Part shown: positions 1,208 to 37,500 of the stretch, one piece after another | Position numbering within the stretch: position 1 is the first letter of the stretch | How the letters are laid out: each line of letters begins with the position of its first letter | Source of the DNA: Cloeon dipterum | Taxonomy: Eukaryota; Arthropoda; Insecta; Ephemeroptera; Baetidae | Direction: 5' to 3' | Assembly (NCBI RefSeq): GCF_949628265.1 | Contig: NC_088787.1 | Location: forward strand, 8,298,501-8,362,500 | Length of the DNA stretch: 64,000 nucleotides | Made by a program: the position numbers and the translations under genes | Notes under the pieces: model-generated | Seen by the model: the letters and a program-made list of their open reading frames with translations, nothing else | What the model was told of the DNA's origin: nothing | Databases searched by the model: none

Positions 1208-4200
1208 ATGAACGCAAAAATTTTCATTACTCTCCTGGTTGCCTGCTTGATTGTATTTAATTCTGAAACCAGTGTAATTCCAAACTTTAAATTAACACGT
1301 TTCAGCTTCATTTGGGAATTTCAAAACGGCCTTCGAATAATTTGGAGAGGCACAAGAGTATAATATACTATATTTCTAAATTTATTATGATAGAGTAATG
1401 AATATTCTAGAACAAATGCAAAGCAAGAGCAGAAGACAGATAATAATCCAGTGCTGTGGAAAAAACTCGTGCTTGAATCTTTTATCCAAGACGAAGAGCA
1501 GAACAAATTCTACAATTTCATCAATGCGAGAGACCACTACTTACGCTATGACGACAAGGCAAAAACCAACCAGCTTGGAGAAAAGCTCACAATATGAGAG
1601 CACCGACTTTCTCCCAGAAACAGATGCTGTGACTCTGGTTCCTCCAACTGATAATGAGCCAACAACAAATTTAATAGAAACAAATTCTCTTGAAATTGTC
1701 TCAATTGCCTCGACAGCTAGCTCCACTGATTCGTTTGCTCCCTTCAATCAGACTTTTTCTACTCCGACTCCAGAGACTATGAAGGTTCCTCTCTCTTCGA
1801 CAGCATCTATTGCTTCATCAGTTGTGGAGCAGAGCACAACGCAAATCTCGCAAATCTCAGATTCGACAAGTGCCAGCACGCAAAATCAAGAAAACAACAC
1901 GACGATTGAGTTTGTAGTTAAAGCAGACCCACCTGACGTAGCTGTGGTTGATAATATTTCCCCAGTTCCATTGATTGGTCCGGTATTGTTCGATTTTCGA
2001 AAATATAATTTTTTGTTAAGAAAAAATACGTTACAGTTTGCTGCTGCCTATGAACACGATTGCCAGAAAAATGTATGTAATTTAATATTTTTTTAAAAAA
2101 AATCATCAGCCTGTAGTTTTTTATTAGCTTTCACTATTTGGTCCAGACGGGCAATTATTAGGTAACACTTTTAAATTTTAAAAATGAAATTTCAAGACAT
2201 ATAGAAATTAAAATATTTATATTATCAATTTAGAAGCCGAAGATTACGGAGCTTGGGAAACAACTTGCGGGAGCCTCTATCTATTTGGAAGTAAAGTTGT
2301 AAGTGACACGCATTCATTTATTCAAAAATTTATTTATCACTTCAAATATTAAAAGTTGAGCTGGGAAGAAAACTTCAACTTTTGCTGCAGTTTGGGCATG
2401 CTTCCGTTGACGGTGGAAGATGATTTTAAACGTTCCTGTCTGCAAGATTTCATTGGCGGTTCATAATTCAGCCATTTTTATTCATTAGCATTTTACAGTA
2501 TGCGGTTCTAGGTGTGAAATGGCCTCACAGCTCCATGTATTGGAGCACAGGCAAACGTTTGTCCGGAAACATTTTTACGTGGTACGACAAGCGCGTCACT
2601 TTCAACCCAACTCTGTGGAAAGCCAAACAACCTGACAACGTCAATGGAACTGAAAACTGCGTCATGCTGAGCATTTTCAAGTTTGAATTAAATTCCGTGA
2701 AATTAGAAGATATGCACTGCGACAAACTGGCAGTTGCGGCTTGTGTGGTAAGTCTTGACATATCTTGAAGAAGAAAAATGTTTAGAAAATATTTGTAGGG
2801 ACCAACTACGCCGGCACCAAAATGCTCTTTTCCATTGTGTGCAAACAGAGACTGCAAGAAAAATGTAAATAATTAAAATAATTAATGGTTACTAGTATGG
2901 TGTATGGTCATTTAATATTTCATTTAGGAGACTTTTTTCACAAATCTGGTTGAAAATCCCGCTCAATATCTAGCTGGTTTGTAATTTAATCTAATAAATA
3001 TATTATAGAATCGTAAACATCAATTCCAGAGCCAAAAAATCACGGAATTTGGATAGAAGTCAACCATAGGACGTTTATGTTTAGCTTTGAAAGTGACATG
3101 CGGACGGTAAATAACGACAAGCTTTCCTGATCATACAAATAATATACATTTTTTTTATAAAGTTTGAAGAAGCTAATCAGGCTTGTTGTGCAATCGACTT
3201 GAAGCTGCTTAGTCTCCACCAAGGCTACAAATTCAGATTTGTTGCAGCTGCTCTTAAAAGTATATTTTTAATTCTAAAAAGACAAATCAAAAGTTTGTTT
3301 GATTTACTAGATCTCACAATAAAATCTGGCAAATTTTGGACGTCAGGCGGTGATTTTGGTTGCGAAGGCGTTTTTGGATTTTGTTCCACGAACAGGACAT
3401 TGATGATGAATGAGACAATCTGGCTGCCTAACCAACCGGACGACTTGAAGGGAAACGAACACTGCTTAGCAATAAACGCGTTGAGCAATTACGCGGCTGC
3501 TCTGAGCAATGATAACTGTGACCTCAAACTGAGATATATTTGCGAAGTAATTGATATTTGTTTTTAAACAATTAAATACAATTATTTTAAAAGGGAAGGG
3601 CATCAACTCGCGTAAAAGCTCTGGAGCTGGAATGTGCTGCAGCTTCCAATCTCGCCGACGGTACAGAGCTAATTTAAAATTAAAAATTTCTTCTCACTAA
3701 ATCGAGATCAGATGAAATTCTTAAGGCGTTTGCCAGCCCGAATGGAAGCGACAAATTTAGGTGTTTCATGACTTGTTACGGAGAGAATGCAAACCTTGTA
3801 TATATAATTTATTTAATTGCTTTAAATAAATTAGCCAAAAATATTCTAGTACGCGAATGGAAAAATGGTTGACTCCCGAATTTTGCCTTTTGTGCCTTAC
3901 ATTTCGGCTGGAAGTGATTCCTCCATGAAGGAGTACTATGGCACCTTAGACCAATGCAAACAAGACAGTCGTAAATTCATGGCTTAATTATTGATTTTCC
4001 TTAATAAAAACATTTTGTTTCAAGGAAAATTGTACGGCTGCAATCGAGTGCCCAATTTTGTCTCTTGCAGTCAAGAAAAGTCGCCAATCCTCACTGAAAA
4101 GATGATCAATGTAGTAGAAACAACTATTTCAGTATATAGAGCACTGTTTTGTGTTTGAACAAAGTGACATTATTTATTTTTTATTATTATCCTATCAGGA

Positions 4201-4948
4201 AAAAAAGGCATTGCTACCACCCGTTTCAGAGTCACCTTGTCCCAACGCGCATGACAAAATTATGAACGTATAGCAACATTTAATACTTTTCTCCAAACTG
4301 AATTTGTATTTTAGGAGAACTACAGGAATTACTTTGATTTATATACAGAACGTATAAATTGTTTAACTTCTTTATGCGATTAAAATTTATAGAGTTTTGT
4401 TTTAAACAGAGAGGGCATATATTGACCCTCAAAGAATCTTAATCAAAACCTCGTGCGGGAAAAAATTTCTCCTTCTCACAATTATAAATGCAGTAACTAC
4501 ATTTTTTATTTATTGTGTTGGATTTAGCTTAAATAATTTCAAGCCGGCGCTGACGACCCTTGGGCAGGCAATGACCGAGTGTGCGAAGTGGGGACTTCGT
4601 CTCGCCACCATTGACACAAAAACTAAACTTGACTGCATGATCAACGCAAGCATTCGTATAGTTTAATCCACTTCCGAGTTAATCCACCTTTTACCGAACA
4701 AAATTATAATAGAGTTTGATGGTGGAATGCTAGCAACCTACCCGGAAAAGTACTACGCGATTGCCGCCATCTTGAACAGACCCCTAAAGGCGAAGAACTG
4801 CTTTTCTGATGTCCCATTTGGCTTAGCCAGCTGGATCGTAAACAACATTTCAACCGCGACAGGGCCATTTGTCATTGTCAATTTCTCCAAAAAATACGCC
4901 ACCACTGTAGGTGGTTCGTTTAAAGACATTATCTGTGAGACGATTTAA
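1208..4948 (+). CDS. Copy B: secreted mucin-CTLD-CTLD-odorant-binding-CTLD mosaic protein, 868 aa, 22 exons
   Basis: Exons: 1208-1273, 1306-1357, 1411-1982, 2037-2072, 2128-2161, 2234-2298, 2356-2458, 2512-2747, 2799-2864, 2928-2976, 3030-3106, 3163-3259, 3311-3546, 3594-3660, 3712-3797, 3850-3970, 4025-4131, 4199-4267, 4315-4351, 4410-4492, 4544-4655, 4713-4948. They sum to 2607 nt, one open frame, all introns GT-AG. A hydrophobic signal peptide comes first, then a basic stretch with CCGKNSC, then a Ser/Thr-rich linker (exon 3). CTLD1 spans exons 4-8 with a QPDN motif, CTLD2 exons 9-13 with QPDD. Exons 14-17 form a classic odorant-binding domain (C-x25-C-x3-C-x42-C-x9-C-x8-C). CTLD3 spans exons 18-22 and lacks a QPD/EPN motif. 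The linker is about 37 residues shorter than in copy D. AATAAA lies at 4978-4983. Domain family calls rest on motif spacing. The function is unknown; a secreted recognition or binding role is inference. Confidence 0.88.
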
Positions 4949-7642
4949 CGCGAAAGAAGCACTTCGATTTCAATGTTAATAAAAATAACACTCGCACAAT
5001 CAGCTTAACTTAAATTTTTGTTTTTCCATGGAAAACCAGCTAAGTTGAGGCAGAACACGCATTATTATGAAATGTTACCAATATTTTTATTTAATTACAC
5101 CAAGGAAACTATGAAGTTTATAGATACTAGTAAAAAATTATTACCACACTGTAAAATGCTGGGAAAAACACTTAGAGAGAAAATCATTCGCTATTGCTCT
5201 GCTCTATAATTAAAGAAAATTAAAAAATATTAATACTTTTACTTAAAATACCCATCTAAAAATAAGGAAAACTCACCAGCACAAAAGTTCGCATGCTAGT
5301 CAAGCGTCGAACGCTGTCTCTTTATTGTATATCATGATTTATTTCTCCAGAATGGAAATATACCTGATATAAAGTCTTGCATGTTTGATATACAAACAAC
5401 AATAATTGTACGCTGCTCAGCTATGAGGTACGATGTTCTAGTGATTGTAGCACTTACTACAATTACTTTTTAAAACTAAATATAGCGGTACAACAGCGCG
5501 ATGCTGCTTTTTGTTGGGAGCCAACAATTTTTTATTATTGTTTGACGGCATAGAAAGATGTTTTAGATCAAGAATTCAGTTTTCGTCCGTCAGCCACACG
5601 GTGCTGACGTGATTTGTTTAACTGTGCAGAACCCGATTTAAAGGGGTGACTCCAACCGTCAGTTAGCAAAAGAATTTGTAACTTATTATTTTAAAACAAT
5701 TTCAGTTCTGCTATTTGATTAAGTGTCCGATCGAATTTGCAACTGGAAACCAATACATCAGACAAATTCTTCATCTGAATTTCATCGGTCTTCACCATTT
5801 CAACCCTCTTCCAATATTGTTAGTATACATATTATGTAGTAGGACCAAACGCCTTTCACACGAATAGGAAACTGTGCCGCATAGCAGACTTTCAGAGCAG
5901 GTTGCAAACCAACCAGTCATTGTTGACAGTGAAATTACACACTAGTGCAGGGCGAAGGCACAGGGACCTTTGCCTCGTTTAAAATCACCCTTATATTTAT
6001 TTACATGGAAATAATACGCAACAATCCATTTGAAAATATCTTTCAAATCAAACAGATTTATACAAGCAATATTTCTTACGTCAATAAAAGACTTAACGCG
6101 TTCAGTCAAATACGCAATTACGAATATTTGGTCGCTTAAGAAATGTAACATCCATATCTATCTAAGAGCCGCAGCTGAATGGAAAAATCAGGTTTTATAT
6201 AACTTCATAAATTAATAGGAATTGTTTTTTAACCTTACATTTCATTTAGACAGCAAAGACATTCCCTACGTTTGATCATATGATATGTACTTTGAGTTTT
6301 TTACTTGCTATTCACGGAGATTATACTTGAACAGAAGCAGCCAGCAATTGCACTCTACTGTGAAAATTAAAAAAAAAATCATACACGTTAATGCGTACAT
6401 ATTTATTTCGCCCGCCTTTCTCTATTTACTTTTGGTCACCAAATGATCAAGTAGTGTTGCTTTTGAACCACATATTAAATACAGGCTATAATCATATAAT
6501 TCGTCTAAATCTAAATGTAAACCGCAAAAATTAAAAGCACGGAAATTTCGGGAAAAATACACGAGTTGATTTTCATCGTATTTAAATTGTTATTTATTAC
6601 AAATCTTTTTAGCTACTAACCAATATACCCTTTTTAATTCATTTCCATTGAATATACAGTGTGAAGAGCAGACCACCAACTGGCATGCGCTGAAAACACG
6701 TCTTCTTCGCTTGTTTCCGAATCCGAAAATATGTAGACAAATCTCTCGAACCGCTCTCACTGCCGCCCCCAATCGAAACAATGAAATAATATTGTGACCT
6801 CTGCGTTCAAATTCATATTTAGCAAAAACAAAAAAACAAAAAAAAATTTAAGAAGAGAAACTAAATTAATTATAAAAAGTAATGTACAAAATTGTAGTTA
6901 AATTGACATTTTAACTATTCAAAAACTATACATATATAATAAGCATGCATGTGACACTTATAAGACACTATGTGTTTTTCATTTCTTTCTGGCCTTCCAT
7001 TCTTCATGGGGCAATCTAACGGGCAAGAATCGTGAAATTTTAAGCCGTTTAAACCATGTTTACAGTCCATTAAAACTTATATTTTTCAACTTTTATTATT
7101 TTCCAATTAAGAACTTATTCAAAATAAAAAAGTGGCATTCAATTTAAACTTGTAATTTTGTCCTTGAAATTTTTGGATAAAAGAAAAAAATTCGCACCAT
7201 TTTTTAAATTTTAGAATTCTTTCAAAATTAAAAAAAGGCTCTTTTCTATTGTTGAGTTTAAAACACATAAAAATAATAGCATTAATCGCCACTGGAAAAA
7301 TTTAAAGAACATTCCCTCAATAAAACAATAGAGTGAACGCTAAATTTATAAAAATTTAAAAAAAGGACGCTTTAAAGCCTCAACAACGTGAAAAATCCAA
7401 AACCATCGAAAACCATATTTCCACAAAACGCATTCTAATAATAATTAAATACTCACAAGAAATTCAAAATGTTCTCAGCTTTTGATTTCGAAACAAAAGA
7501 TTGTTTCGCAATTGCAGCGAGGTAGGTGAAGTTATTTGAAATGATGAATTTTGTATTTCAACATCCGATTTACAACGTCATCGTTTGCGCAGTTGAAAAA
7601 GTATCCACAGTTCTCATATGCAGACTACTTTCCCATGGCAAC
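4949..7642. other. B-C spacer: 3' flank repeat, spacer unit and upstream block of C
   Basis: No gene is supported. From 5000 to about 5420 is a 3'-flank block repeated after copy C (11500-11900) and, more diverged, after D (17800-18370) and near 24220-24700. It carries the tracts CCAAGGAAACTATGAAG and ATCATGATTTATTT. About 5840-6600 is the spacer unit listed separately. About 6780-7380 is AT-rich and featureless. From 7390 starts the conserved upstream block of copy C. Confidence 0.5.
5840..6600 (+). repeat. Spacer repeat unit, copy 1
   Basis: Begins near ACGCCTTTCACACGAATAGG and includes AGCAGACTTTCAGAGCAGG, TTTGCCTCGTTTAAAATC, a TTTGGTCGC tract and TTTTGGTCACCAAATGATCA, a 10-bp palindromic core. 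The same order of blocks occurs at about 11950-12700 and 30570-31860, with a shorter part at 33840-34040. Short open frames inside (for example 5945-6139) are not conserved between copies, so I regard it as noncoding repeat rather than a gene. Confidence 0.6.
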
Positions 7643-10600
7643 ATGAACGCACAATTTTTCATTCCTTGCCTGGTCACCTGCTTGATTGTATTTTTTTTGG
7701 AAACCAGTGTGAATCCAAACTTTAATTTAACACATTTCAGCTTCATTTGGGAATTTCAAAACGACCATCGAATAATTTGGAGAGACACAAGAGTAATCCG
7801 ATAATTTATTTTTATACTGCTTGTCATGACAGAGTAACTTAATTTCTAGAACGAGTGCAAAGCAAGAGCAGCAGACAGTTAATAATCAAGTGCTGTGGAA
7901 AAAACTCGTGCTTGAATCTATTGTCCAAGACGAAGAGCAGAACAAATTCAACAATTTCATCCATGCGAGAGACGCCTCACGCTCAGACGGAAATTTCATC
8001 CCTTAGGAAAAAACCAACCAGCTTGAAGAAAAGCTCACAATATGAGAGCACCGACATTTTCTCAGAAACAGATTCCTTGACTTAGGTTCCTTCAACTGAA
8101 AATGAGCCAACATTAAATTTAAAAGGAATTGTCTCAACGACCAGCTCCACTGATACTTTTGTTCCCCTCACTCAGACTTTTTCTACTCCGACTCCAGAGA
8201 CTGTGACGGTCCCTCTTTCCACGACATCCTCCGTCGCATCTTCTGTTGTGGAGCAGACCACAATAAAAATCCCACAAATCTCAGATTCGTCAAGCGCCAG
8301 CTCGCAAAATCAAACCATTCCAACAAAAAGTACTGAAATCTTAATTGAGCAGGGCAGCTCCAACACATCAACGATGAACACCCCTCCAATCGAAGTTTCT
8401 GACAAGATGCAAAACAACACCACGGTTCAGTCTGTAGACGCTGTTGTTCAAACTGACGCAGTGTTGGTTTCAAATGCTGCCCCAGTGACGTTAATTAGTC
8501 CGGTATTGTTAAAGTTACAAAATATTATTATTTGTTCAAAAATTACGTAGCAGTTTGCTCCTGCCTATGAACACGTGTGCGAGAAAAATGTATGTTTTTA
8601 ATATTTTTATAAAATATTCATCCTGAAGTTTTTATTAGCATTCTCTTTTCGATCCAGACGGGCAATTGTTAGGTAAAATAATAATTTTTAAAAATTAAAA
8701 GGTCTTCAGGAAATGAATTACATGACATCTCCTTATAAATTTAGATGCCGAAGATTACGGAGCTTGGGAAGTAACTTGTGGGAGCCTCTATCTATTTGGA
8801 AGCCAAGTTGTAAGCGCAAAACATTCATCTATTCAAATTTTAAATTAATACTTCATGAATTAAAAGTTAAGCTGGGAAGAAAACTTCAACTTTTGCTGCA
8901 GTTTGGGCATGCTTCCGTTGACGGTGGAAGATGACTGGAAACGTTCTTGTCTGCAAGATTTCATTGGCGGTTCATACCTCAGCCATTTTTATTACTTAGC
9001 ATTTTAAAGTATGTGGTTCTAGGTGTGAAATGGCCTCACAGCTCCATGTATTGGAGCACAGGCAAACGGCTGTCCGGAAACACTTTTACGTGGTACGACA
9101 AGCGCGTCACTTTCAGCCCGACTCTGTGGGAAGCCAACCAACCAGACAATGTCAATGGAACTGAAAACTGTGTCATGCTGAGGATTTTCAAGTTTGAATT
9201 AAATTCCGTGAAATTAGAAGATACGCACTGCGACAAACTGGCAGTTTCGGCTTGTGTGGTAATGCTTGAAATGTCTTAGAAGAAGGAGAAAATGTTTAGA
9301 AAATATTTGTAGGGACCAACTACGCCGGCACCAAAATGCTCTTTTCCATTGTGTGCAAACATTGACTGCAAGAAAAATGTAAATTCAAATAATTGATGGA
9401 TATAGCATGGCCATATAATTTTTCAATTTTAGGAGACTTTTTTCACAAATCTGGTTGAAAATCCAGCTTATTATCTGACTGGTTTGCAATTGACTTGATA
9501 TAATTATTTTATTAAAAAATCGTCAAAATAAATTTCAGAGCCTAAAAATCACGGAATATGGATAGAGGTCAACTATAGAACGTTTATGTTTAGCTTTGAA
9601 AGTGACTTGCGGACGGTAAATACCACCAAGTTAGCCAGATCATAAAAATAATGTACAATTTTCTTTAAAAAGTTTGAAGAAGCTAATCAGGCCTGTTGTG
9701 CACTCGACTTCAAGCTGCTTAGTCTCCACCAAGGATACAAATTCAGATTTCTTTCGGCTGCTTTTAAAAGTGTTTTCTATTAATTGTAAAATAATGAATC
9801 AAATGGTCGATTTACTAGATCTTACAATAAAATCTGGCAAATTTTGGACGTCAGGCAGTGATTTTGGATGCGAAGGAGTTTTTGGATTTTGTTCCACGAA
9901 CAGGACATTGGTGACGAATGAGACAATCTGGCTGCCTAACCAACCGGACAACTTGAAGGGAAACGAACACTGCTTAGCAATAAACGCGTTGAGCAATTAC
10001 GCGGCTGCTCTGAGTAATGACAACTGTGACCTCAAACTGAGATATATTTGCGAAGTAATTGATTTTTGTTTTTAAACAATTAAATACAATTATTTTAAAA
10101 GGGAAGGGCATCAACTCAGGCAAAAGCTCTGGAGCTGGAATGCGCTGCAGCTTCCAATCTCACAGATGGTACAGAGCTAATTAAAAATTAAAAATTTGTT
10201 TCACAAAACCAATATTAGATGAAATTCCTATGGCGTTTGCCAGCCCGAATGGTAGCGACAGATTTAAATGTTTCATCACTTGTTACGGAGAGAATGCAAA
10301 CCTTGTATATTACATTTGTTTTATTGTTTTGAAGAAAAGTTTAATAACAAAATATCTTAGTACGGCAATGGAAAAATGGTTGACTCCCGGATTTTGCCTT
10401 TTGTGCCATACATTTCTGAAGGAAATGATTCCTCCATGAAGGAGTACTATAGCACCATGGACCAATGCAAACAAGACAGTCGTAAGTTCACATGGCTTAA
10501 TTATCAAGTTTCCTAATAAAAAGGTTTTTTTAAGGAAAATTTAAGGGCTGCCTTCGAGTTGCCAATTTTGTCTCTTGCAGTCAGGCAAAGTCACCAACCC

Positions 10601-11449
10601 TCACTGAAAAGATGATCAACGTAGTAGAAACAACAATTTCGGTATATAGCTCATTTTGTTTAAACGATTGACATTTATTTTTATTATTCTCTCAGGAAAA
10701 AAAGGCATGGCTACCACCTGTTTCAGAGTCACTTTGCCCCAACGCTTATGATAAAATTATGAATGTATGAAAAATAGTTGAATTACATTTTCTTTCAACT
10801 GAAGCCGTATTATAGGAGGACTACAGGGCTTTCTTTGATTTATATTCAGCAGGTATTCACTTTTGATATTTATATTGCGATTAAAGAACAAGAGTTTTGT
10901 TTCAAACAGAGAGGGCAAATTTGTTCTCTTACAGACTCGTAATCTGCACTTCATGCGGGAAAAAATTTCTCCTTCTCTCAATAGAAAAAGCAGTAACTAT
11001 GTACATTTCATACTTAATGGTTTGAATTTAGCTTAATTAATTTCAAGCCGCCACTGACGACCCTGCGGCAGGCAATGACCGAGTGTGCAAAGTGGGGACT
11101 GCGTCTCGTCACTATTGACACACAAACAAAACTCGACTGCATGATCAACACAAACATTCGTAAAGTTTAATCCACTTCTGAGTTTATCCGCATTTTACCA
11201 ATCAAGAATATGATAGAGGTCGATCTCAGTCTTCCAACCTATCCGGAAAAGTTCTACGCGATTGCCGCCATCTTGAACAGACCCCTAAAGGCGAAGAACT
11301 GCTTTTCTGATGTCCCATTTGGCTTGGACAGCTGGATTGCAAATAACATTTCGACCGCCACAGGACCATTTGTCGTTGTAAATTTTTCCAAAAAATACGC
11401 CACCACTGTAGGTGGTTCGTTTAAACATATCATTTGTGAAACGTTTTAA
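7643..11449 (+). pseudogene. Copy C: CTLD/odorant-binding mosaic gene with one premature stop in the linker exon
   Basis: All 22 exons align with copies B and D and keep phase. Module spans are N-terminal exons 7643-8502, CTLD1 8554-9258, CTLD2 9313-10054, odorant-binding 10102-10641 and CTLD3 10696-11449. Exon 3 (7850-8502) holds one in-frame TAG at 8083-8085 where D has CTG. A deletion of part of the mucin linker follows, but the frame continues and everything downstream is open and keeps its cysteines and splice sites. If translated normally the product would stop after 117 residues, in the mucin linker before any lectin domain. The lesion looks very recent: it could be a null allele, a sequencing error, or be avoided by RNA processing. 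AATAAA lies at 11490-11495. Confidence 0.75.
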
Positions 11450-11949
11450 CGCTAGACAATAGCTGCAAAAGCACTTTGATTTTAAATTTAATAAAAATAA
11501 CACTCACACAATCTGCTAAACTTAAATATTTGCTTTTCCATGTAAAACCAGCTAAGTTGAGGCAGAACACACATTATTATAAAATGCGACCAATATTTGT
11601 ATTTAATTACACCAAGGAAACTATGAAGTTTATAGATACAAGTAAAAAATTATTACCACACCGTAAAATGCTTGAGAGAAAATTATTCGTTGTTGCACTG
11701 CTTTATAATTAAAGAAAAGCTTAACAGAAAACTAAAAAATATTATTACTTTTACTTAAAATACCCATCTAAAAATAAGGAAAACTCATCAGCACAAAAGT
11801 TTGCATGCTAATCAAGCGGCGAACACTAACTCCTTATTGGATATCATGATTTATTTTTCCAGAGTGGAAATACACCTGCTATAAAGTCTTGTATGTTTGA
11901 TATGCATAACTGTACGCTGCTTAAAAAAATTTCTTTTAAAAGCTATAAT

Positions 11950-12700
11950 TAAAAATAACGACCAGACGCCAGTCACACAAATAGGAAACTGTACCGTAGA
12001 GCAGACTATCAGAGCAGGTTGCAAACCTACCAGTCATTATCCACTTTTGCTATTGGCAATGCACATGCAGGGCGGAGGACTAATAGGGACTTTTGCCTCG
12101 TTTAAAATCTCACTTAAATCGATTTACATGGAAATAATACGCAACAATCCATTTGAAAATATCTTTCAAATCAAACAGATTTAAAAGCGTCTTTGCCATC
12201 AAATGACTTTGCGTCCAGTCAAATATTCAATTACGAAGATTTGGTCGAGTAAGAATGTAAGATCTATCAAAGAACCGTAGCTGATTGGTAAAAACAGGTT
12301 TTATAAAACTTCATAAATTAGGAATTGTAATTTAACCTTACATTTCATTTAGACAGCAAAGAATTTTCCTCCGTTTAGTCATATATGTATTAATTAATTT
12401 TTTACTTGATATTCGCGGAGATTATACTTGAACAGATGCAGCCAACTTTTCACTCTACTGCGAAATCAACACGAAAGAATCCTTAACATTATGCAAATAT
12501 TTATTTGGATCGACTTTTCTCTGATATACTTTTGGTCACCAAATGATCAAGTGCTACTGTTGAACCACCAAGACTATTTTAAGTTAATAATTCGTCTAAA
12601 CGTGGAAACCGTAAAAATGAAAAGTAATAAAGTTTTGGTAAGAAATTAGACGAGATGACTTTCATAAAATTAAAAACATTTTTTATTACACTTATTATTT
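11950..12700 (+). repeat. Spacer repeat unit, copy 2
   Basis: Same block order as 5840-6600: GCCAGTCACACAAATAGG, AGCAGACTATCAGAGCAGG, TTTGCCTCGTTTAAAATC, then TTTTGGTCACCAAATGATCA near 12530-12550. It keeps + orientation relative to the window, like the other copies. Confidence 0.6.
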
Positions 12701-12718
12701 ATTTATCTAAATGAACCT

Positions 12719-12955
12719 GGTTTGCACCTTTCCAGCATGCGTGATTTGGCCTCGCGGGACGAATGTCTAGCGTTTCAATGCAGTCCTCGGTGCGGAGGCA
12801 AAAGGTCCTTCAGAGGGTTGGGTCCCTGTGCGGCCTGGTGCACCCATGTTATCCGTTCGCGGTGTTATTGGCATGTTTCAGCATTCGTGCTAGTGCAGTG
12901 CGCGCCTTCCCGGTCCTCCGGTCCTCGGACAGGGATAAAATGAGCAAAAAAATAT
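12719..12955 (+). mobile_element. LINE-like 3' fragment with A-rich tail, copy 1 (5' truncated)
   Basis: Much more GC-rich than its surroundings. About 90% identical by eye to 31330-31570, from the tract CACCTTTCCAGCATGCGTGA to CAGGGATAAAA, followed by GAGCAAAAAAATA. An abrupt left end, a shared right end and an A-rich tail fit a 5'-truncated non-LTR retrotransposon or other retroposon. No reverse transcriptase is present, so the family cannot be named. Confidence 0.55.
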
Positions 12956-13906
12956 AAATACATTTTTGCATTCATTTCCATTGAAAAACACAAATATGCA
13001 GTATTTTGAAACCAAAATACAAATAAGTTTTTAATTTGGTGGTGAAAAATGGAAATTGGGGTATGTGAAAAATAAACCTCAAGCAATAAAAATGTAATTT
13101 TACTCATCGTTTTGATGGTCGTATTCGCCTATATATCGTTTGGTCAAAAAGCGAACCGTCATCGCTGCAAAGAGAAAACACACGAAACAATTCAGCACTG
13201 CGCGTGACAGATGACAAAGCGTGGGAAACTGACCGGTTTTTCCGACGCCGGAGGCTCCGATGGCCGCGACTTTCACTTCAGTCAGGCTGGATTTTTACCT
13301 GCGAATCCGTCGAATCAGATTGTCTTCTTGTCAATTTTTTAGTTCTAAAACGCATATATATATATATTTAAAAAACCAAATGTAAGTAACAAAATAAAAT
13401 TTAAGAAATAAATTAAATATATAATATGTTTTACGTATTGATGAGATTGTACTCCATTAGAGAGTTTGTGGCGTTCCTTTTAGTAATGAATTGGTTAAAT
13501 GAGGATCTATTAAATTTTGAGATCAAATATACGTCCCGGATATAAAACATTATTTTTTCTACAACCTAAATAAAAGAAAGGCGAGTGAAAAAAATTATTT
13601 ACATTTTTAAAACAGGCAATCACGTGAAAAATCCGACACCTTTGAACCCCGTTTTTTTACTTTTTACCAAAATAATTCTAATATTAATCAAGTGCAACAT
13701 GAAAATAAAAAAATTCACAGCCTTTGATTTCGAAACAAAGTGTTGTGTCAACACTCGCTTTCCCAAAACGTAGATGGTGATGTTTGTTCAAATGATAATG
13801 GAATACGTTGTTTTCCAACATCCGATTGACACCGTCATCGGTTACGTAGGTGGAAAAAGTCCACCATTGGAGCTCTCATATATGCAGACTACTTTCCCAC
13901 GGCAAC

Positions 13907-16900
13907 ATGAACGCAAAATTTTTCATTCCTTGCCTGGTCACCTGCTTGATCGTATTTTTTTGGAAACCAGTGTAATTCCAAACTTTAATTTAACACATTT
14001 CAGCTTCATTTGGGAATTTCAAAACGGCCTTCGAATAATTTGGAAAGGCACAAGAGTAATCCGATAATTTATTTTTATACTGCTTGTCATGACAGAGTAA
14101 CTTAATTTCTAGAACGAGTGCAAAGCAAGAGCAGCAGACAGTTAATAATCAAATGCTGTGGAAAAAACTCGTGCTTGAATCTATTGTCCAAGACGAGGAA
14201 CAGAAAAAATTCTACAATTTCTTCGATGCGCAAGACGCCTCACGCTCAGACGGAAATTTCATCCCTTAGGAAAAAAACAACCAGCTTGGAGAAAAGCTCA
14301 CAATATGAGAGCACCGACTTTCACCCAGAAACAGATACAGTGACTCTGGTTCCTTCAACTGACAATGAGCCAACAACAAATTTAATAGAAACAAATTCTC
14401 TTGAAATTGTCTCAATTGCCTCGACGGCGAGCTCCACTGATTCATTTGCTACCTTCAATCAGACTTTTTCTACTCCAATTCCAGAGACTAGGACGGTTCC
14501 TCTCTCCACAACAGCCTCCGTTGCATCTTCTGTTGTGGAGCAGAGTACAACAAAAATCTCACATATCTCAGATTCGACCAGTGCAAGCACGCAAAATCAA
14601 GAAATTCCTTCGACAAGTACGCCAATCTTAACTGAGCAGGGCAGCTCCATTACGTCAACGATGAGCACCCCTCAAACCGAAGTTTCTGACGCGATGGAAA
14701 ACAGCACAACGGTTGAGTCTGTAGAAGCTGTTGTTCAAACAGACCCGCCTGACGTAGTATTGGTGGATAATGCTTCTCCAGTTCCTTTGATTGGTCCGGT
14801 ATTGTTAGATTTTCGAAAATATAATTTTTTGTTAAGAAAAAATACGTAACAGTTTGCTGCTGCCTATGAACACGAGTGCCAGAAAAATGTATGGATTGAT
14901 TATTTTTCTTAAATTGTCATCTTGAAATTTATGATATAGGTTTCCCTTTTTGATCCAGATGGCAATTTGATAGGTACACATTACTAATAATTAAAATTGA
15001 ATATTTTAGTAACTAAATTTAATAACATATATATCTCCATATCAATTTATTAGAAGCCGAAGATTACGGAGCTTGGGAAACAACTTGTGGGAGCCTCTAT
15101 CTATTTGGAAGCCAAGTTGTAAGTGACGCGCATTCCTTAATTCAAAATTTAATTTAACACTTTTGAAATTAAAAGTTAAGCTGGGAAGAAAACTTCAACT
15201 TTTGCTGCAGTTTGGGCATGCTTCCGTTGACGGTGGAAGATGATTTTAAACGTTCCTGTCTGCAAGATTTCATTGGCGGTTCAAAATTCAGCCATTTTTA
15301 TTCATTAGCATTTTACAGTATGCGGTTCTAGGTGTGAAATGGCCTCACAGCTCCATGTATTGGAGCACAGGCAAACGTTTGACCGGAAAAACTTTTACGT
15401 GGTACGACAAACGCGTCACATTCAGCCCAACTCTGTGGAAAGCCAAACAACCTGACAACGTCAATGGAACTGAAAACTGCGTCATGCTGAGGATTTTCAA
15501 GTTTGATTTAAACTCAATAAAATTGGAAGATAGGCACTGCGACAAACTGGCAGTTTCGGCTTGTGTGGTAAGTCTTGACATATCTTGAAGAAGAAAAATG
15601 TTTAGAAAATATTTGTAGGGACCAACTACGCCGGCACCAAAATGCTCTTTTCCATTGTGTGCAAACAAAGATTGGAAGATAAATGTGAATTCAAATATTG
15701 AAATAGATTAGCTCATAATATTTTATGGTTTTTAGGAGACTTTTTTCACAAATCTGGTTGAAAATCCAGCTCAATATCTAGCTGGTTTGTAATTTAATCT
15801 AATAAATATATTATAGAATCGTAAACATCAATTCCAGAGCCAAAAAATCACGGAATTTGGATAGAAGTCAACCATAGGACGTTTATGTTTAGCTTTGAAA
15901 GTGACGTGCGGACGGTAAATACCACCAATTTAGCCAGATCATAAAAATAATGTACAATTTTCTTTAAAAAGTTTGAAGAAGCTAATCAGGCCTGTTGTGC
16001 ACTCGACTTCAAGCTGCTTAGTCTCCACCAAGGATACAAATTCAGATTTCTTTCTGCTGCTTTTAAAAGTGTTTTCTTTTTATTGTAAAAGATTGAATCA
16101 AATGGTCAATTTACTAGATCTTACAATAAAATCTGGCAAATTTTGGACGTCAGGCAGTGATGTTGGTTGCGAAGGCGTTTTTGGCTTTTGTTCCACGAAC
16201 AGGACATTGATGATGAATGAGACAATCTGGCTGCCTAATCAACCGGACAACTTGAAGGGAAACGAACACTGCTTAGCAATAAACGCGTTGAGCAATTACG
16301 CGGCGGCTCTGAGCAATGACAACTGTGACCTCAAACTGAGATATATTTGCGAAGTAATTGATTTTTGTTTTTAAACAATTAAATACAATTATTTTAAAGG
16401 GCAGGGCATCAACTCGCGTGAAAGCTCTGGAGCTGGAATGTGCTGCAGCTTCCAATCTTACCGATGGTACAGAGCTGATTTAAAATTCAAAATTACTTCT
16501 AACAAAGCAGAGAACAGCTGAAATTGCGATGGCTTTTGCCAGCCCGAATGGTAGCGAAAAATTCAAGTGTTTCATGACTTGTTACGGAGAGAATGCAAAC
16601 CTTGTATATTATTTGTTTAATTTTTTTGAACAAGTTTAATAGTTATATCTTAGTACGCCAATGGCAAAATGGTTGACTCCCGGATTTTGCCATTTGTGCC
16701 TTACATTTCGGCTGGAAGTGATTCCTCGATGAAGGAGTACTATGGCACCATGGGCCAATGCAAACAAGACAGTCGTAATTTCACATGGCTTAATTATCGA
16801 GTTTCCTAAATCGAAAATTTTATTTTAAGGAAAATTGTACGGCTGCAATCGAGTGTCCAATTTTGTCTCTTGCAGTCAGACAAAGTCGCCAACCCTCACT

Positions 16901-17732
16901 GTAAAGATGATCAACGTAGTAGAAACAACTATTTCAGTATAAAGCTCTATTTTGTTTAACCAATTGATTTTCAATATTCTCTCAGGATAAAAGGTCATGG
17001 CTACCACCAGTTTCAGAGTCACTTTGTCCCAACGTGCATGATAAAATTATGAATGTATAAAAAATAGTAAAATTATTATCTCCAAACTGAAGCCGTATTT
17101 TAGGAAGACTACAGAACTTTCTTTGACTTATATTCAGCAAGTATTCACTATTAATATTTGCATTCCGTTTAAAATTCAAGAGTTTTGTATCAAACAGCAA
17201 GGGCAACTATTCGCCCTTACAGATTCGTAGTTAGTACTTCGTGCGGGAAAAAGTTTCTCCTTCTCTCAATTGAAACAGCAGTAACTGCATTTCTTTCTTT
17301 TATTGTTTTTGATATGGCTTATTAATTTCAAGCCTCCGCTGACGACCCTGGGGCAGGCAATGACCGAGTGTGCAAAGTGGGGACTGCGTCTCGCCACCAT
17401 TGACACAAAGACAAAACTGAACTGCATGATCACCGCGAAAATTCGTAGTTCACTCCACTTCTAAATTATACCGGTTTTTACCGATCAAAAAATAAATAGA
17501 GGTCGACCTCGGTCTCTCAACCTACCCGGAAAAGTTCTACGTGATTGCCGCCATCTTGAACAGACCCCTAAAGGCGAAGAACTGCTTCTCTGATGTCCCA
17601 TTTGGCTTGGACAGCTGGATTACAAACAACATTTCGACCGCGACAGGACCATTTGTCATTGTCAATTTTTCCAAAAAATACGCCACCACTGTAGGTGGTT
17701 CGTTTAAACATATTATTTGTGAAACGTTTTAA
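13907..17732 (+). CDS. Copy D: secreted mucin-CTLD-CTLD-odorant-binding-CTLD mosaic protein, about 904 aa, 22 exons
   Basis: Same architecture as copy B. Module spans are N-terminal exons 13907-14798, CTLD1 14853-15567, CTLD2 15619-16353, odorant-binding 16400-16936 and CTLD3 16986-17732; the last exon is 17500-17732. Every frame is open. The linker exon (14113-14798) encodes 228 codons and is the longest of the + strand copies. The signal-peptide exon has one T fewer than copy C in a T-run. Frame is kept only if the donor two bases upstream (CCA|GTGTAA) is used instead of AGT|GTAATT. In the CTLD2 leader, the Cys of DCKKN in B is Trp (DWKIN). Odorant-binding cysteine spacing is unchanged. No good AATAAA was seen just after the stop. 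Confidence 0.84.
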
Positions 17733-18433: not shown

Positions 18434-21400
18434 TCAAATTGATTCACATGCTAATAGTTTTCTGGCGTTCGTCGCATACTTGCCAAGTTTAGATGCAAAA
18501 TTCACTACTGCACATGACTGGCTGGTGGTAGCGAGTGAAGCGTCAAAAGTCATCCAACTTGCGTAACCGAATGGAACGTCAGAGAAGCAGTTTTTGGTGG
18601 AAAGTCCTGGCAGCCTAACAGCCGCCGTAGAGTAATAATAGCTTGGTAAAGCAGTTCCCTCTGCGTTAAAAATATTAACTCATTATAAAATAAATCTGTC
18701 ATTTACTTTCTAAAACTTTTTTCAGAGCCAAAACTGATGTTACTTAAAACTTTCATAATTGTAGATATTTAAAGAAACAAAGGTTAATTTTCCTCCTTTA
18801 AAAATTGAATTGTACAGCATGGAAAAACATTAGCTGTTTTTAGATCAATAATGATTGTGACTCACGTAATTTGCTTTTAAACATGCAGTCAACTTTGGCT
18901 TTTGAGTCAATTGTCAGCAAACGCATGCCAAGCGCGCAACATGCAGACATCAGCTCCGAGACAGATCCCTTTATTAACGGAATTAAATGAAATAATTTCC
19001 TTTTTAAAGTGAATCGTACCGGCACGAACCAGAGTCCAGTGAAAAATCTTTTTCCGCATGCAACCGTAACTGTTCCAGTGATTCCGTCCATCGTAATCGT
19101 GGAACCTGTTGGTGATTTTACCAAAATAAAAAAGTTACAAAACATAAAATTCAGTTTCCAACCACTAGCAGCAGCAAAAATAGCATTTTGCCAATCAGGC
19201 TGAAATTTTTTTAGATAGGACTGAGTAATGAGATTTATTTTTTAGCAATTTACATTTATGACACATCGGTGTTTGTTTGGACAGAGTGAAGTGGTTGTTG
19301 GTGGCAGCCACGATTTCTTCTCCTAAAAAAAGTTTTTTACCCAAAATTTTAATTCATAACATAAATCAAACAGTGATGGTTGGTTCGATTGCAGCCACAA
19401 GTTTCATAGTTGCAGTCGGCGCCTTTACCAATCCGCATCCAAGCAGTCCTGATGCTCTTTCACACATGTCTCTCACGGCTAATTAATTTAAATTATAGTC
19501 GTTATTATACTTTGAAATAAATTGAGTTTACTTCTGCTTTGCGCTTTGCAAACACTTGCTGTTCCGTAATTTTGCGTCAAAGTCGCCTCGCTATCTTGAG
19601 AAGTTGCCCAAATGTTGGAATAAATTCTTGGCTCATTCATCCTGCCATTAGCAAACTAAAACGTTTTCTAATTAAGTTAATTAAAATGATCTATTTTCGT
19701 TACTACCAAGTTGGTATTTTCACTGTAGCATTTCATGAAGCACTTCATTCGGGGGCTGGGATTGGTGCTTGTCCAAACCGTAGCCAGTTCAGCTTAAAGG
19801 CAAAAGATATTTTAAATATTTTCATATAACACCAGTGAAAATATGGGCTACCATTCAATAATATTTAAAATACAAAGACATTGGTTTTACACCTAAAGGT
19901 ATAATATTTATATGTAAGAATAACTGAATGGCTCTATACTTTGTATGAAAAGTTAATTCTTAAAAGTTAGCTAATTTTCAACACAGGGTTCAGAGTTTCT
20001 TCAAAAATATTAAGAAGTGCCAAAACTTGCGCTAAAAATTCCAACACGCCTCATTGGATTTTAATTTTTTTACTTTTAACAAGATAAAAATCTAAGTTAA
20101 CAGATAAAAAAGCATACTTGGTGTAATATTATAAGCAGCAACGCATTCTAACTCGTGAGCCTTCACCTTGTTTGAAGTTCTGCCCTGCAATGTCAAATTA
20201 TTTACTTACCATCTAACAGACTAGCAAATCATAAAGAAATCGCACCTCGCAAATGTATCTGAGCTTTGTAGTGCAAGGTTCGTCACTGAGCAGAGCTTGT
20301 TTGTTGAAAGCATTGACCGCTAGGCAGTCTTGGTTGCTCGGACCAGTATCGTCAGGCTGATTTGGCATCCAAAAACTTTCGTTCCAGTTGATGGTTCGGT
20401 TCGTCGAGCAGAAGCCGTAGGTGCCTTCACAGCCGGCGTCCGAACCGGCCGTCCAAAATTTCCCAGTTGCAACAGAAAGGTCTGAAAATATATTTTTTAA
20501 TGCAGAAATGGTCTCTTCATTTGACAGAATTTGATACTTTTGAAAGCCCTGGCGAGAAAGTTGAATTTGTAGCCTTGGTGCAGACTCAGCAGTGTCAAAT
20601 CCAGCGCACAGCATGCGGCCAGTGCTTCGTCAAACTAAAATTACTCAACCAAAAGATAATCTCATTAGATTGTTTGGTGTGAAATTGTAATGATAATAGA
20701 ATTAAATGTTGATTTAATAGTGGCAATTAACGATCTTACAGATATTGAGTGTTAAAAAATCGAACCGTTCTAATGTCCGTGTCTTTGCTTAGCATGAAAG
20801 TCCGGTAATCAATATCCACCCACACTCCATGATCATTTGGTGCTGTTTTTTATATTTTATTAGATTTTTACATTTTATTAATTCATACTAGTCAGGTAAG
20901 AAGTTCCTCTATCGGGTAGAATAGTGTGGAAAGGAGGCTTTCAAATTAAAAGCAGTTAGTATTGAATATAAAAATGAAATATCATCTAGAGTTACATGGA
21001 TTGTGCAATTCATGAAAGGACATTCTGGAAAGCTACACTTTGGCTTTGGCGTTGTTGGGCCCTTTCGAAATATATTTCATTTCTCTTGTCATGAAAATCA
21101 GCAATGCGTCATACAACACACGAGTTGGGCGTCAAGCGCTCGCAATTCCGATCGTCTAGTTGCACAATTGTTTTGTTAAACATCAGAATGTTGATCATGA
21201 CGCAGTCCTCTGTCCCGTTTGTGTTGCTTGGTTGCGCGTACCGCCAGTAGTTAGTTTTGAACGTGGCTCGCTTGTCGTACCACGCGAATGTGGTTGGGTC
21301 CATTCGTTTTCCAGTCGACCAGAAGCGAACGTTGTACTTCCAATTCGGGCCTATACTAGAAATTAAAATAAAATAATCAAAATAAGTTTAGCTATACCGT

Positions 21401-24758: not shown

Positions 24759-27700
24759 TCAAATTGATTCACATGCGAATATTTTTCTTGCACCCGTCAT
24801 GTACCTGCCCAGTTTATATGCAAAATTCACTGTTGCACATGACTGGCTGGTGGTAACGAGTGAAGCGTCAAAAGTCATCCAACTTGCATAGCCGAATGGG
24901 AGGTCAGAGAAGCAGTTTTTGGTGGAAAGGCCTGGTAGCCTAACAGCCGCCGTGGAGTAATAAAAGTTTGGTGAAGCAGTTCCCTCTGAGTTACAAAATT
25001 AAAATTCATTATAGAATAAATCTTTTTTTTTCAGAACCAAGACTGATGTTACTTTAAACTTTCATAATTGTAGGTATTTAAAGAAACAAAGGTTAATTTT
25101 CCTCATTTAAAAATTGAATTGTACAGTATGGAACACAACATTAGGAGTTGTCATCTAATAAATAATGATTGAGACTCACGTAATTTGTTACTAAACAAGC
25201 AGTCAGCTTTGGCTTTTGTGTCAATTGTCAGCAAGCGCATGCCAAGCGCGCAACATGCAGACATCAGCTCCGAGACAGATCCCTTTATTAACGGAATTAA
25301 ATGAAATAATTTCCTTTTCAGTGAGTCCTACCGGCACGGGCCAGAGTCCAGTGAAAAATCTTTTTCCGCATGCAACCGTAACTGTTCCAATGATTCCGTC
25401 CACCGTAACCGTGGAACCTGTTGGTGATTTTACCAAAATGAAAAAATTGAAATAACTTAAATTCAGTTTCCAACCACTAGCAGCAGCAAAAATAGCATTT
25501 TGCCAATCAGGCTGAAATTTTTTTGGATAAGACTGAGTAATGAGATTTATTTTTTAGCAATTTACATTTATGACACATCGGTGTTTGTTAGGACAGAGTG
25601 AAGTGATTGTTGGCGGCAGCCATGATTTTTTCTCCTAAAAAACGTTTTATAACCAAAATTTTAGTTCATAAAATAAATCACACAGTGATGGTTGGTTCGA
25701 TTGCAGCCACAAGTTTCATAGTTGCAGTCGGCGCCTTTACCAATCCGCATCCAAGCAGTCCTGATGCTCTTTCACACATGTCTCTCACGGCTAATTAATT
25801 TATATTATAGTCGTTATAATTTAAAATACTTTGATATAAATTGAGTTTACTTCTGCTTTGCGCTTTGCAAGCACTTGCTGTTCCGTAATTTTGCGTCAAA
25901 GTCGCCTCGCTATCTTGAGAAGTTGCCCAAATGTTGGAATAAATTCTTGGTTCATTCATCTTGCCATTAGCAAACTAAAAGAAAATGCAAAAAATTTTAA
26001 GTAAGTTAATTAAAATAATTTATTTTCGTTGCTACCAAGTTGGTATTTTCACTATAGCATTTCATGAAGCACTTCATTCGGGGACTGGGATTGATGCTTG
26101 TCCAAACCGTCGCAAGTTCAGCTTAAATCATAGGTTATTAATTTATGTATGCGTATTTTCATATTATACCAGGGAAAATATTAGGCTCGCAATCAATAAT
26201 ATTAAAACTATAATAAAAAACATATACACACTCTTTACAATTACGAAAAAAATTAATGGCACTACCCTGTGTGAAAAGTTGATTCAAGACAGTTAGCTAA
26301 TTTTCCACACAGGGTAGAGTTTTTCTTAATTAAAAAAGGGCCCGCGCTAAAAATGTTCCCAAGCTACAATGGATTTTTTAACTATACTTTTAAGAATAAG
26401 TTTAAAGATAAAAAACCATACTTGGTGTTATATTATAAGCCGCAATACACTCCAACTCGTGAGCCTTCACCTTGTTTGAAGTTCTACCCTGCAATGCCAA
26501 ATTATTTACTTACCATCTAACTGACTAGCAAATCCTAAAGAAATCACACCTCACAAATGTATCTGAGCTTTGCAGTGCAAGGTTCGTCGCTGAGCAGAGC
26601 TTGTTTGTTGAAAGCATTGACCGCTAGGCAGTCTTGGTTACTCGGACCGGTATCGTCAGGCTGATTTTGCATCCAAAAACTTTCGTTCCAGTTGATGGTT
26701 CGGTTCGTCGAGCAGAAGCCGTAGGTGCCTTCACAGCCGGCGTCCGAACCGGCCGTCCAAAATTTCCCAGTTGCAATAGAAAGGTCTAAAAATATAATGT
26801 TTCAATGCAGAGGTGTTCTCTTCATTTGACAGAGTTTGATACTTTTGAAAGCCCTAGCGAGAAAGTTGAATTTGTAGCCTTGGTGCAGACTCAGCAGCGT
26901 CAAATCCAGCGCACAGCATGCGGCCAGTGCTTCGTCAAACTGAATTTAATCATTTCAAACGAAAAATTGTAATTTTATAAGTTAAAATATAATAAATATA
27001 ATCTAATGAGATTGTATTGTGTGAAATTATAAAGTTAACAAAATTCAATGTAGATTGATATTAAAGATATTGAGTGTGAAAAACCGAACCGTTCTGATAT
27101 CGGAGTCTTTGCTTAGCATGAAAGTCCGGTAATCAATGTCCACCCACACTCCGTGATCATTTGGAGCTGTTTTTTTTTACATTTTATTAGATTTTTACAT
27201 TTTAAAAATCCCTATGATCATTCATACTCGTCAGGTAAGAAGTGGCTCCATCAGGTAGAATAGTGTGGAAAGAAGGCTTTAAAATTAAAAGCAGTTAACA
27301 GTATGATTTTTATATAAAGAATTCTCCGAGTTACGTGAATTGTGCAATTCATGTAGGGACATTCTGGAAAGCTACACTTTGGTTTCGGCGTTGTTGGGCC
27401 CTTTGGAAATAAATTTCATTTCTCTCGCCATCAAAATCAGCAATGCGTCATACAACACACGAGTTGGGCGTCACGCGCTCGCAATTCCGATCGTCTAGTT
27501 GCACAACTGTTTCGTTAAACATCAGAATATTGATCATGACGCAGTCCTCAGTTCCGTTTGTGTTGCTTGGTTGTGCGTAACGCCAGTAGTTAGTTTTGAA
27601 CGTGGTTCGCTTGTCGTACCACACGAATGTGGTTGGGTCCATTCGTTTTCCAGTCGACCAGAAGCGAACGTTGTACTTCCAATTCGGGCCTATACTAGAA

Positions 27701-34590: not shown

Positions 34591-37500
34591 TCAAAGAGAT
34601 TCGCATGCAAGATTTCTCGCATCCCCTTTGTAGTAGTAACCCATGCGGTTTGCAAAATTGACCAAAGCAAAAGAGGGAACGGTGTTGATCAGAGTAGCGT
34701 CGAAATCCATCCAGCTGCGATAACTAAACGGTTGATCGGAAAAGCAATTTTTGGTGGCGAAAGATGGTTGTCTGACAGCTGCTGTAGTGAAGCCCCTGTT
34801 GTTAGCCAACCCCTTTTCTTCAGGTTATTTATTATTTTAATTTGGCAAAGGATGCAAGACAAGTGGTATAAATCTTACGCAGATTATTTGTAAACACGCA
34901 GTTAGCTTTCCATTGTGAGTCAATTGTTAGTAGGCGCATTCCCAGCGAGCAACAAGCAGACATAAGTTCGTGAATCGGAACCTTGTCATCAATTATGATA
35001 ATTAGATGTGTGATAATAAATAATTTTCAATACCCAATCAAACCAATTTCCGACGAAAAATCTCTTCCCGCAAGCCACGGTGACAGTTCCCGTTATTCCG
35101 TTGGATGAAAATGTAGAGCCTTAATTTAATTAGTTAGACAAATTTGCTCCACATTTTCCCTCCTTGTGTACCACTTGCGGCAGCATAGATGTCATCTCTC
35201 CAATCGGGCTGAAATTTCAAATTCAAACTAAATTCCACAAGCGCAAGTCAAGTTAGTAATTCACATTAATGACGCATCGGAAAGTGTTTGGACAGAGAGA
35301 AGTGGTTGTTGGCACGAGCCAAGATTTACGCTCCTGAAAGAAAATTATTTTAAAATTTTGATGAATATGTAGACGTAATACTATAATCGTTGGCTCCATC
35401 ATATCCACCAGCTTCATAGTTTCCGTCGGTGATTTCTGCAGTCCACAATCGAGCATTCCGGAAGCCCTGCTGCACAATTCAGGGAGGGCTTGAAACAGAT
35501 TTTCCAATCAGATTTAATAAAAGGAAAACTGATCGAAATTCACGTTTGCTCTGCTTCGTGCACGTGTCCATTGTGGCGTAGTTTTGCTCCAATGTCGTCG
35601 CGCTCTTCCGAGAAATGGCCCAAACATGGGAGTACACTCGAGGCTCATTGATCCAACCATCAATAAACTGATTAAGTGTTGCGCTAATTTGAAACATATA
35701 TTTTTATTAATCAATTTCCCAACCAAATCTGTGTGTTCGCCGTAGCATTTCATAAAGCACTGTAGACGGGGACTGGGATTGGTGTTCGTCCACAGCGTTG
35801 CAAGCTCAGCTGGATAATTTTAATAAATATCAAACATTTGTTACAAATTTGCACCAACAAAATCGTACCAGCTGTAACCCCATAAGCCGCCATACATTCC
35901 AGCTCGTGTGCTTTCTGCTTATCGGTGCTTCTTCCCTAATTTTGTTTACAATATATTTTTATTTTACCTCATATTCTCATAAAAATTGACCTCGCAAATG
36001 TATCTAAGCTTTGCGCTGCAGGGTTCGTCGCTAAGCAGAGCTTGGTTATTGACGGCATTGACCGCCAGACAGTTTTGGTTGCCGGAACCTGCATCATCAG
36101 GTTCATTTTTCATCCAAAAAGTCTCATTCGAATTGGCAAATCTCCTGGTCGAGCAAAACCCGTATTTTCCCTCGCAACCACCATCCGATCCCGACGTCCA
36201 AAATTTTCCAGATGTGATGGATAGGTCTAAATAATTTAAAAACTATAGCTGCTTGGAATTTAATTTGAGTGAAAAAGGATACTTTTGAAAGCCCTAGCTA
36301 GAAAACTGTATTTGTAGCCCTGCTCCAAGCTGAGTAGCTTGAAATCCAACGCGCAACACGCAGCGAATGCTTCTTCTAACTATTTTTTTTCAATTAAATG
36401 ATGAGATATTTTTATTAAAAGTTCAAACCGTTTTCGTGTCGCTTGGCTTGCTAATCATAAACGTCCGATAATCAATTATCGTCCAGGAACCATGATTATT
36501 TGGAGCTGATAATGGATGTAAAGAAGTAAAACCTTTATTTAAATTCCTTCAAAATACCAGTCAAATAAGACGTCACACCGTCTGAAAGAACAGTGTGGAA
36601 AGCAGGCTAAAAACGGAAATCAATATTTAAATAAGGAATAAATTAATGAAAAGTAATATCACATTTAGAGTGCAATTTGATGTTGGGCACTGCGGGAAAG
36701 CGCACTTGGGTTTCGGCGTGGTTGGACCCTGATTTTAACTTTTAATTTCGTCTTCCATTTTTTTTTAAATCGATATTAATTGTTCTTACAACACATGAAA
36801 ACGGTGTTAAAGAATCACATGCCCGATCATTGAGTTGCAAAGTCATCTCGTTGAACGGGAATATAGTGATCATGACGCAGTTTTCGTTTCCGTTGGTGTT
36901 GCTTGGCTGTCCTGTCTGCCAGTAATTACTGCTGAACGTGGCTCGCTTGTCGTACCACACGAAACTGGTTGGGCTTGCCCTTTTTCCTGTCGACCAGTAC
37001 ACCACATTGTACTTCCAGTTGGGACCTTATTTTGCAAATAATTGAGTTCGTGCATAGTGTTTGAATTTTGCGAAATACCGTCTATGAAATCCATGAGGCA
37101 GCTGTGTTTCCAAGCATTATCTATCATTATAGGCAGCATTCCGATGCTGCAGCAGAGGTCGAAATTTTCCTTAAAGTTTGCCTGGTTAAAAGAATAAATA
37201 AATTTGTGGATTTATGGAATTAAAACGAAATTTATACAAGTTGGTTTCCAAAGATATATTGTTCCCCGCAGGCAACTTCCCACGATCCATACTCCCTGGA
37301 ATCTTGGGTTTGAAAAGATAAATTATTTATTAGGTTTGATAATTAGATTTTCTACTTTTGAGGCTTCCATCAGCATCAAATAGTGATTGCTAAAACGAAA
37401 GAATTTTTTACATTAATTTTCTTAAAATATTTACTAACATTTTTGACGCAGGTAAATGAATAGGATGCCTCGAACTGAAATAATTAGATTTACTATCTGA

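Follow-up and report, generated by a model that had tools for sequence, protein, structure and literature searches.

Tandem genes of Cloeon dipterum with a predicted odorant-binding domain set between lectin-type modules

Introduction

Insect odorant-binding proteins (OBPs) are commonly viewed as small, free carriers. The closest described systems in which an OBP shares a gene with a further domain are double-domain (dimer) OBPs and atypical OBPs of mosquitoes; their partner is a second OBP domain (PMC3428353, in excerpt). On the lectin side, the insect CTL-X class combines a CRD with other motifs, and no OBP is seen among these partners in the excerpts of PMC8235521. Links of OBPs to immune responses have been reported (PMC12495806, in excerpt), and 191 OBP genes were counted in Cloeon dipterum by BLAST and profile searches (PMC7250882, in excerpt).

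The available main text of this Cloeon dipterum paper (PMC7250882) contains no word beginning with "lectin". The same holds for the available main text of PMC12495806, whose account of OBPs includes none fused to another fold. Among the titles and abstract openings of the matches listed from the open-licence literature, no fusion of an OBP with a C-type lectin is described; the one paper among them that names both families gives them, in excerpt, separate rows of a table. No description of the OBP-lectin combination was found in the open-access literature searched, a scope that leaves priority unsettled.

The window analyzed here is a stretch of 64,000 nucleotides of Cloeon dipterum (assembly GCF_949628265.1, contig NC_088787.1, positions 8,298,501 to 8,362,500), and all coordinates below are those of the window. 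It carries a tandem gene family whose product is probably an OBP-lectin chimera, as judged from its predicted domains. An earlier note on this DNA, made from the letters alone, had placed an OBP domain between C-type lectin domains in one secreted protein.

Organization of the Locus

The family is arranged in two tandem groups of three copies each, in opposite orientation: copies B, C and D at 1208-17732 (+) and copies F, G and H at 18434-38640 (-). The core exons of C (8554-11449) and D (14853-17732), each with a stop codon, lie on the plus strand, and those of F (21797-18434), G (28142-24759) and H (37474-34591) on the minus strand. A partial copy, A, occupies positions 1-700 and consists of just the end of a CTLD3-like module. 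OBP identity is 85-97% within the recent trio B-C-D and the recent pair F-G; the older H shares 59-60% with F and G. Three long introns are present in F (131, 325 and 205 nt) and three in G (150, 300 and 194 nt), the other 102 introns measuring 46-80 nt.

Apart from this family, the window contains a gene for a biopterin-dependent aromatic amino acid hydroxylase at 39739-41719 (-), with Biopterin_H matches in two ORFs (E 9.9e-36 and 3.4e-44); a third ORF of the same locus reaches 16.5 bits against TH_ACT, below the cut-off of 27. A tRNA scan and a search with Rfam at gathering thresholds found nothing in the whole window.

The Odorant-Binding Domain

The four OBP exons that the earlier note had proposed in copy B, at 3594-4131, are confirmed, with GT-AG boundaries. 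In the splice model, all on the plus strand, they span 3594-3660 (holding C1), 3712-3797 (C2 and C3), 3850-3970 (C4) and 4025-4131 (C5 and C6), and are numbered 13-16 of 21 here, equivalent to exons 14-17 of that note. Spliced together, they encode a segment of 127 amino acids with a cysteine spacing of 25-3-42-9-8. The corresponding modules lie at 10102-10641 (C, +), 16400-16936 (D, +), 19372-20184 (F, -), 25684-26488 (G, -) and 35382-35935 (H, -). The six cysteines and conserved spacings described previously are found in all six copies: 25-3-42-9-8 in B, C and D, and 25-3-42-10-8 in F, G and H. Copy C, missing from the earlier list, has an intact OBP part. The C4-C5 spacing of 10 in F and G follows from a start of the last OBP exon that agrees with the 107-nt exon of copy H. 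Classic OBPs are characterized by general family ranges for these spacings; the six copies all fall within them and all have C2-x3-C3 and C5-x8-C6.

Comparison with the Pfam profile PBP_GOBP bears out the family assignment, as the region scores 31.4-35.3 bits in each of the six copies carrying it, at a cut-off of 22. For the segment of copy B (32.9 bits, E 7.3e-8), this is the sole family at E<=1. The segments of C, D and H reach 35.3, 34.3 and 32.4 bits; those of F (31.4) and G (34.3) were scored with the last exon begun 9 nt downstream of its final start. G was scanned again with the final exon start inside its core protein, and the score of F refers to the earlier start only. In the longer models the match is retained in all three scanned (full-length B, 28.3 bits; G core, 33.1; H core, 29.1); C, D and F were scanned as OBP segment only. 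A single PBP_GOBP stretch is present in each of B, G and H, and not the two OBP domains of a double-domain OBP. Other Pfam families at E<=1 all stay under their own cut-offs, namely PANTS-like (0.043, in C), I-EGF_1 (0.17, in H) and GPR15L (0.29, in full-length B), and an NCBIfam scan of the copy B segment gave no match.

A profile built from the six OBP copies retrieved 15 PDB sequences at E<=1, the best at 6.3e-5. Twelve of these are named odorant-binding proteins, including LUSH, and the other three, which carry Anopheles gene numbers only, are presumably OBPs as well. A PDB search from the single copy B is weak: five matches up to E 10, with an OBP best at 0.028 and four unrelated proteins. 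A chance cysteine pattern is ruled out by the PBP_GOBP profile together with the PDB matches. At the level of sequence and family membership, these comparisons support the presence of an OBP-family domain.

Relatives of the OBP profile were also sought in collections of viral sequences and genome contigs, where 152 and 112 pattern matches, respectively, left none confirmed, and a distant DNA search of 2928-4351 against a plasmid collection found none. Since these three collections are non-animal by description, absence there says little.

Lectin Modules

In copy B, the OBP module is preceded by two modules of five exons each on the plus strand, CTLD1 (2037-2747) and CTLD2 (2799-3546), and followed by a third, CTLD3-like module, also of five exons (4199-4948, +), which contains the stop codon. 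Full-length B scores 36.3 bits against Lectin_C as a whole protein, and within B, G and H the highest-scoring stretch is module 2. The CTLD2 of copy C reaches 32.4 bits on its own (cut-off 22.6), and the best PDB match of the six-copy CTLD2 profile is the C-type lectin mosGCTL-1 (PDB 9t9z; E 1.6e-7). These profile matches clearly identify CTLD2 as a C-type lectin domain. CTLD1 stays below the same cut-off of 22.6: the module of B by itself reaches 18.4 bits and, in G, the final exon of module 1 reaches 18.6. CTLD1 is related to CTLD2 by hhalign (9.1e-8).

The third module gave no Pfam match alone in the two copies scanned (B and F). Its six-copy profile aligns with CTLD1 at 1.5e-5 (probability 79%) and with CTLD2 at 2.4e-5 (76%) in hhalign. 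As controls, the OBP profile aligned with CTLD3 gives 0.94 and with CTLD2 0.58. In the PDB, the six-copy profile of module 3 has one match, named mosGCTL-6, at E 0.21. The order given in the earlier note, with the OBP between CTLD2 and CTLD3, stands; its description of CTLD3 as a C-type lectin domain is too strong, as the module lacks a Pfam match and is lectin-like by profile comparison and exon structure only. A count of three proven C-type lectin domains is ruled out in the same way.

In C-type lectins, calcium and sugar are bound through EPN/QPD, E and WND residues. Inspected by eye, the CTLD2 of copy B keeps QPD and E, with an altered WND-type motif; F, G and H differ. The sugar-site residues are only partly kept, so that CTLD2 may bind sugar. 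A short cysteine-containing linker, PKC(S/A)FPxC, lies ahead of CTLD2 in all six copies (2799-2864 in B, and the matching exons).

The N-Terminal Region

Exon 1 of copy B (1208-1271, +) provides the start codon and a predicted signal peptide: the highest 19-residue hydropathy window covers residues 1-19, and past the signal peptide no such window exceeds 1.42. Exon 2 (1411-1982, +) encodes a Ser/Thr-rich, mucin-like segment (16% Ser and 15% Thr over the 192 residues taken). At the sequence level, the domain order is complete in copy B: signal peptide, Ser/Thr-rich stretch, first lectin module, second lectin module, OBP and third lectin-like module, in a protein of 850 amino acids.

Upstream of the cores of F, G and H, ATG-led hydrophobic stretches are candidate signal peptides. 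On the plus strand, the N-terminal model of B breaks down in the two other copies: an in-frame TAG is present in the Ser/Thr exon of copy C, and exon 1 of copy D is one base shorter than in B (7850-8502 for the C and 13907-13985 for the D difference). C and D may make an incomplete protein or be in decay, or their N-terminus may come from other exons. A motif IIxCCGKNSC near the N-terminus is common to all three plus-strand copies and to F and G, and H has a variant of it.

Proposed Function and Selection

On balance, the predicted domains favor the reading that the tandem family encodes a secreted OBP-lectin protein with the OBP as a cassette, in which the lectin modules and the mucin-like stretch hold glycans and the OBP carries a small hydrophobic ligand. 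After secretion, the mucin stretch and lectin modules would hold the protein on the glycans of mucus, matrix or a microbial surface, and the OBP pocket would capture or deliver its ligand at that surface. Such a protein would be a tethered form of a carrier that normally diffuses freely, or a sensor, acting in defence or surface chemistry and not necessarily in smell. That ligand binding is coupled to recognition of sugars, as the earlier note suggested, is an inference; the calcium-site residues of CTLD2 are incomplete.

The main rival keeps the OBP in the same protein as nothing but a disulphide-stabilized spacer or a protein-contact module without a small ligand. It is judged unlikely, although it draws some support from the identities between the strand groups, which are lower for the OBP (35-45%) than for CTLD1 (49-52%) and CTLD2 (58-61%), if still above those for CTLD3 (26-36%). 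Against a mere spacer, the six cysteines and their spacings are kept in every copy, apart from a C4-C5 distance of 9 or 10, and dN/dS of the OBP within the groups ranges from 0.09 to 0.34. In the plus group the values are 0.34 (B-C), 0.24 (B-D) and 0.27 (C-D); in the minus group they are 0.09 (F-G), 0.12 (F-H) and 0.13 (G-H), the last two resting on a dS above 2. These are the six within-group pairs; the other 9 of the 15 pairs, all cross-group, have a saturated dS and give no value. The OBP module is under purifying selection. Constraint is similar in CTLD1 and CTLD2 (0.08-0.29 within groups, where defined), and dN/dS of CTLD3 extends from 0.08 to 0.53, with F-G highest.

Modular Design and Origin of the Cassette

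The core of the gene consists of four modules, of which CTLD1, CTLD2 and the CTLD3-like one have five exons each and the OBP has four. Each module has a length that is a multiple of 3 nt and phase 0 at both ends, with a phase pattern of 0,1,0,1,0 in the lectin modules and 1,0,1,0 in the OBP. The OBP module, 381 or 384 nt long, sits between phase-0 introns exactly on the border of the lectin modules. A frame-neutral cassette at a module border generally fits exon shuffling. This phase 0-0 cassette, placed exactly on such a border, suggests exon shuffling; before the copies diverged, the OBP exons very probably entered at the junction of two lectin modules. Pairwise identities group the copies alike in all four modules (B, C and D vs. 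F and G, then H), so the fusion most simply predates the split of the strand groups.

The same geometry would allow an alternative cassette, with some transcripts joining CTLD2 directly to CTLD3: skipping of 381 or 384 nt between phase-0 introns preserves the frame. Such skipping is considered rather improbable; it is also compatible with the secreted OBP-lectin protein favored here.

A broader proposal, put forward tentatively and with slightly less than even confidence, is that the exon-shuffled OBP may have given rise to a new arthropod protein class. Its members would be glycan-tethered carriers of small molecules, whose lectin modules position a pocket of the odorant type on mucus, matrix or microbial surfaces, and selection would have maintained them through an old tandem duplication.

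One Protein or a Separate Gene

For the copies other than B, the B protein was fitted by a spliced aligner that imposes GT-AG boundaries and frame. All six copies fit 19 core exons in an identical phase chain; exon lengths are nearly equal, and no stop codon interrupts the frame. This agreement is not imposed by the aligner and holds at an OBP identity between the strand groups as low as 35%, which supports one protein. The introns are GT-AG in 110 of 110 cases, which is partly imposed by the models. Short introns give the window the look of animal DNA, with 102 out of 108 in the core models of the six copies measuring 46-80 nt, and the OBP family points to an insect.

No in-frame ATG occurs upstream of the OBP exons, back to the last in-frame stop, in any of the six copies, and the first OBP exon holds no methionine before C1. 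Past the last OBP exon there is no conserved stop: stop positions vary, and in copy H the frame stays open up to the next exon. The introns flanking the module are only 46-67 nt long in all six copies; in the intron after the OBP exons, a polyA-like signal was found in copy F and in none of the other five. Even without splicing, tblastn recovers the OBP exons in their proper order from the plus-strand and the minus-strand group, although it did not report the first OBP exon of H. A small stand-alone protein with its own signal peptide, as encoded by a classic OBP gene, is not what these exons would give, as an upstream in-frame start is lacking in 6/6 copies and the exon chain runs on to both sides.

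That the OBP exons form a separate nested or neighboring gene, or reflect an artefact of the assembly or the gene models, is hardly credible, even if the models of the other copies were fitted to B with GT-AG and frame imposed: the missing start, the missing conserved stop and the short flanking introns rule out a separate gene, the tblastn order was obtained without splicing and an artefact would not recur across six diverged copies. The earlier note had named transcripts of a separate OBP gene, with its own start and stop, as evidence against its reading; as far as DNA can tell, such a gene has neither an in-frame start nor a conserved stop. The central claim of that note, a predicted secreted protein in which lectin-type modules enclose an OBP domain, is upheld by the profiles, the PDB sequence matches and the exon phases in six copies. 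It also agrees with the purifying selection and with the missing in-frame start and conserved stop on either side of the OBP exons.

Comparison with Known Systems

If the OBP is kept as an exon cassette in a lectin, OBP pockets would serve as parts of larger recognition proteins. Such a chimera would allow a direct test of OBP action in immunity or surface chemistry, and profile-based counts of OBP genes may include chimeras of this kind.

The module resembles the classic insect OBPs (PF01395, PBP_GOBP) in its six-cysteine pattern, in the Pfam match of all six copies and in the PDB matches of its profile. Among its introns only phases 0 and 1 occur, which are the two splice-site kinds given for Nasonia OBPs in a figure legend of PMC3428353 (in excerpt). 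Unlike a classic OBP, it has no signal peptide of its own and is not a small stand-alone protein, but lies inside a protein of 850 amino acids, between lectin-type modules. For CTLD2, the nearest known structure is mosGCTL-1 (PDB 9t9z; matched chain of 151 residues), although the WND-type calcium-site residues differ.

With the double-domain and mosquito atypical OBPs, as excerpts of PMC3428353 present them, the locus shares the joining of an OBP to another domain in one gene and the arrangement in a tandem cluster; it departs from them in having lectin-type modules as partners. With the CTL-X class (PMC8235521, in excerpt), it has in common a multi-domain protein with lectin modules, but its OBP is enclosed by three lectin-type modules that resemble one another in exon design.
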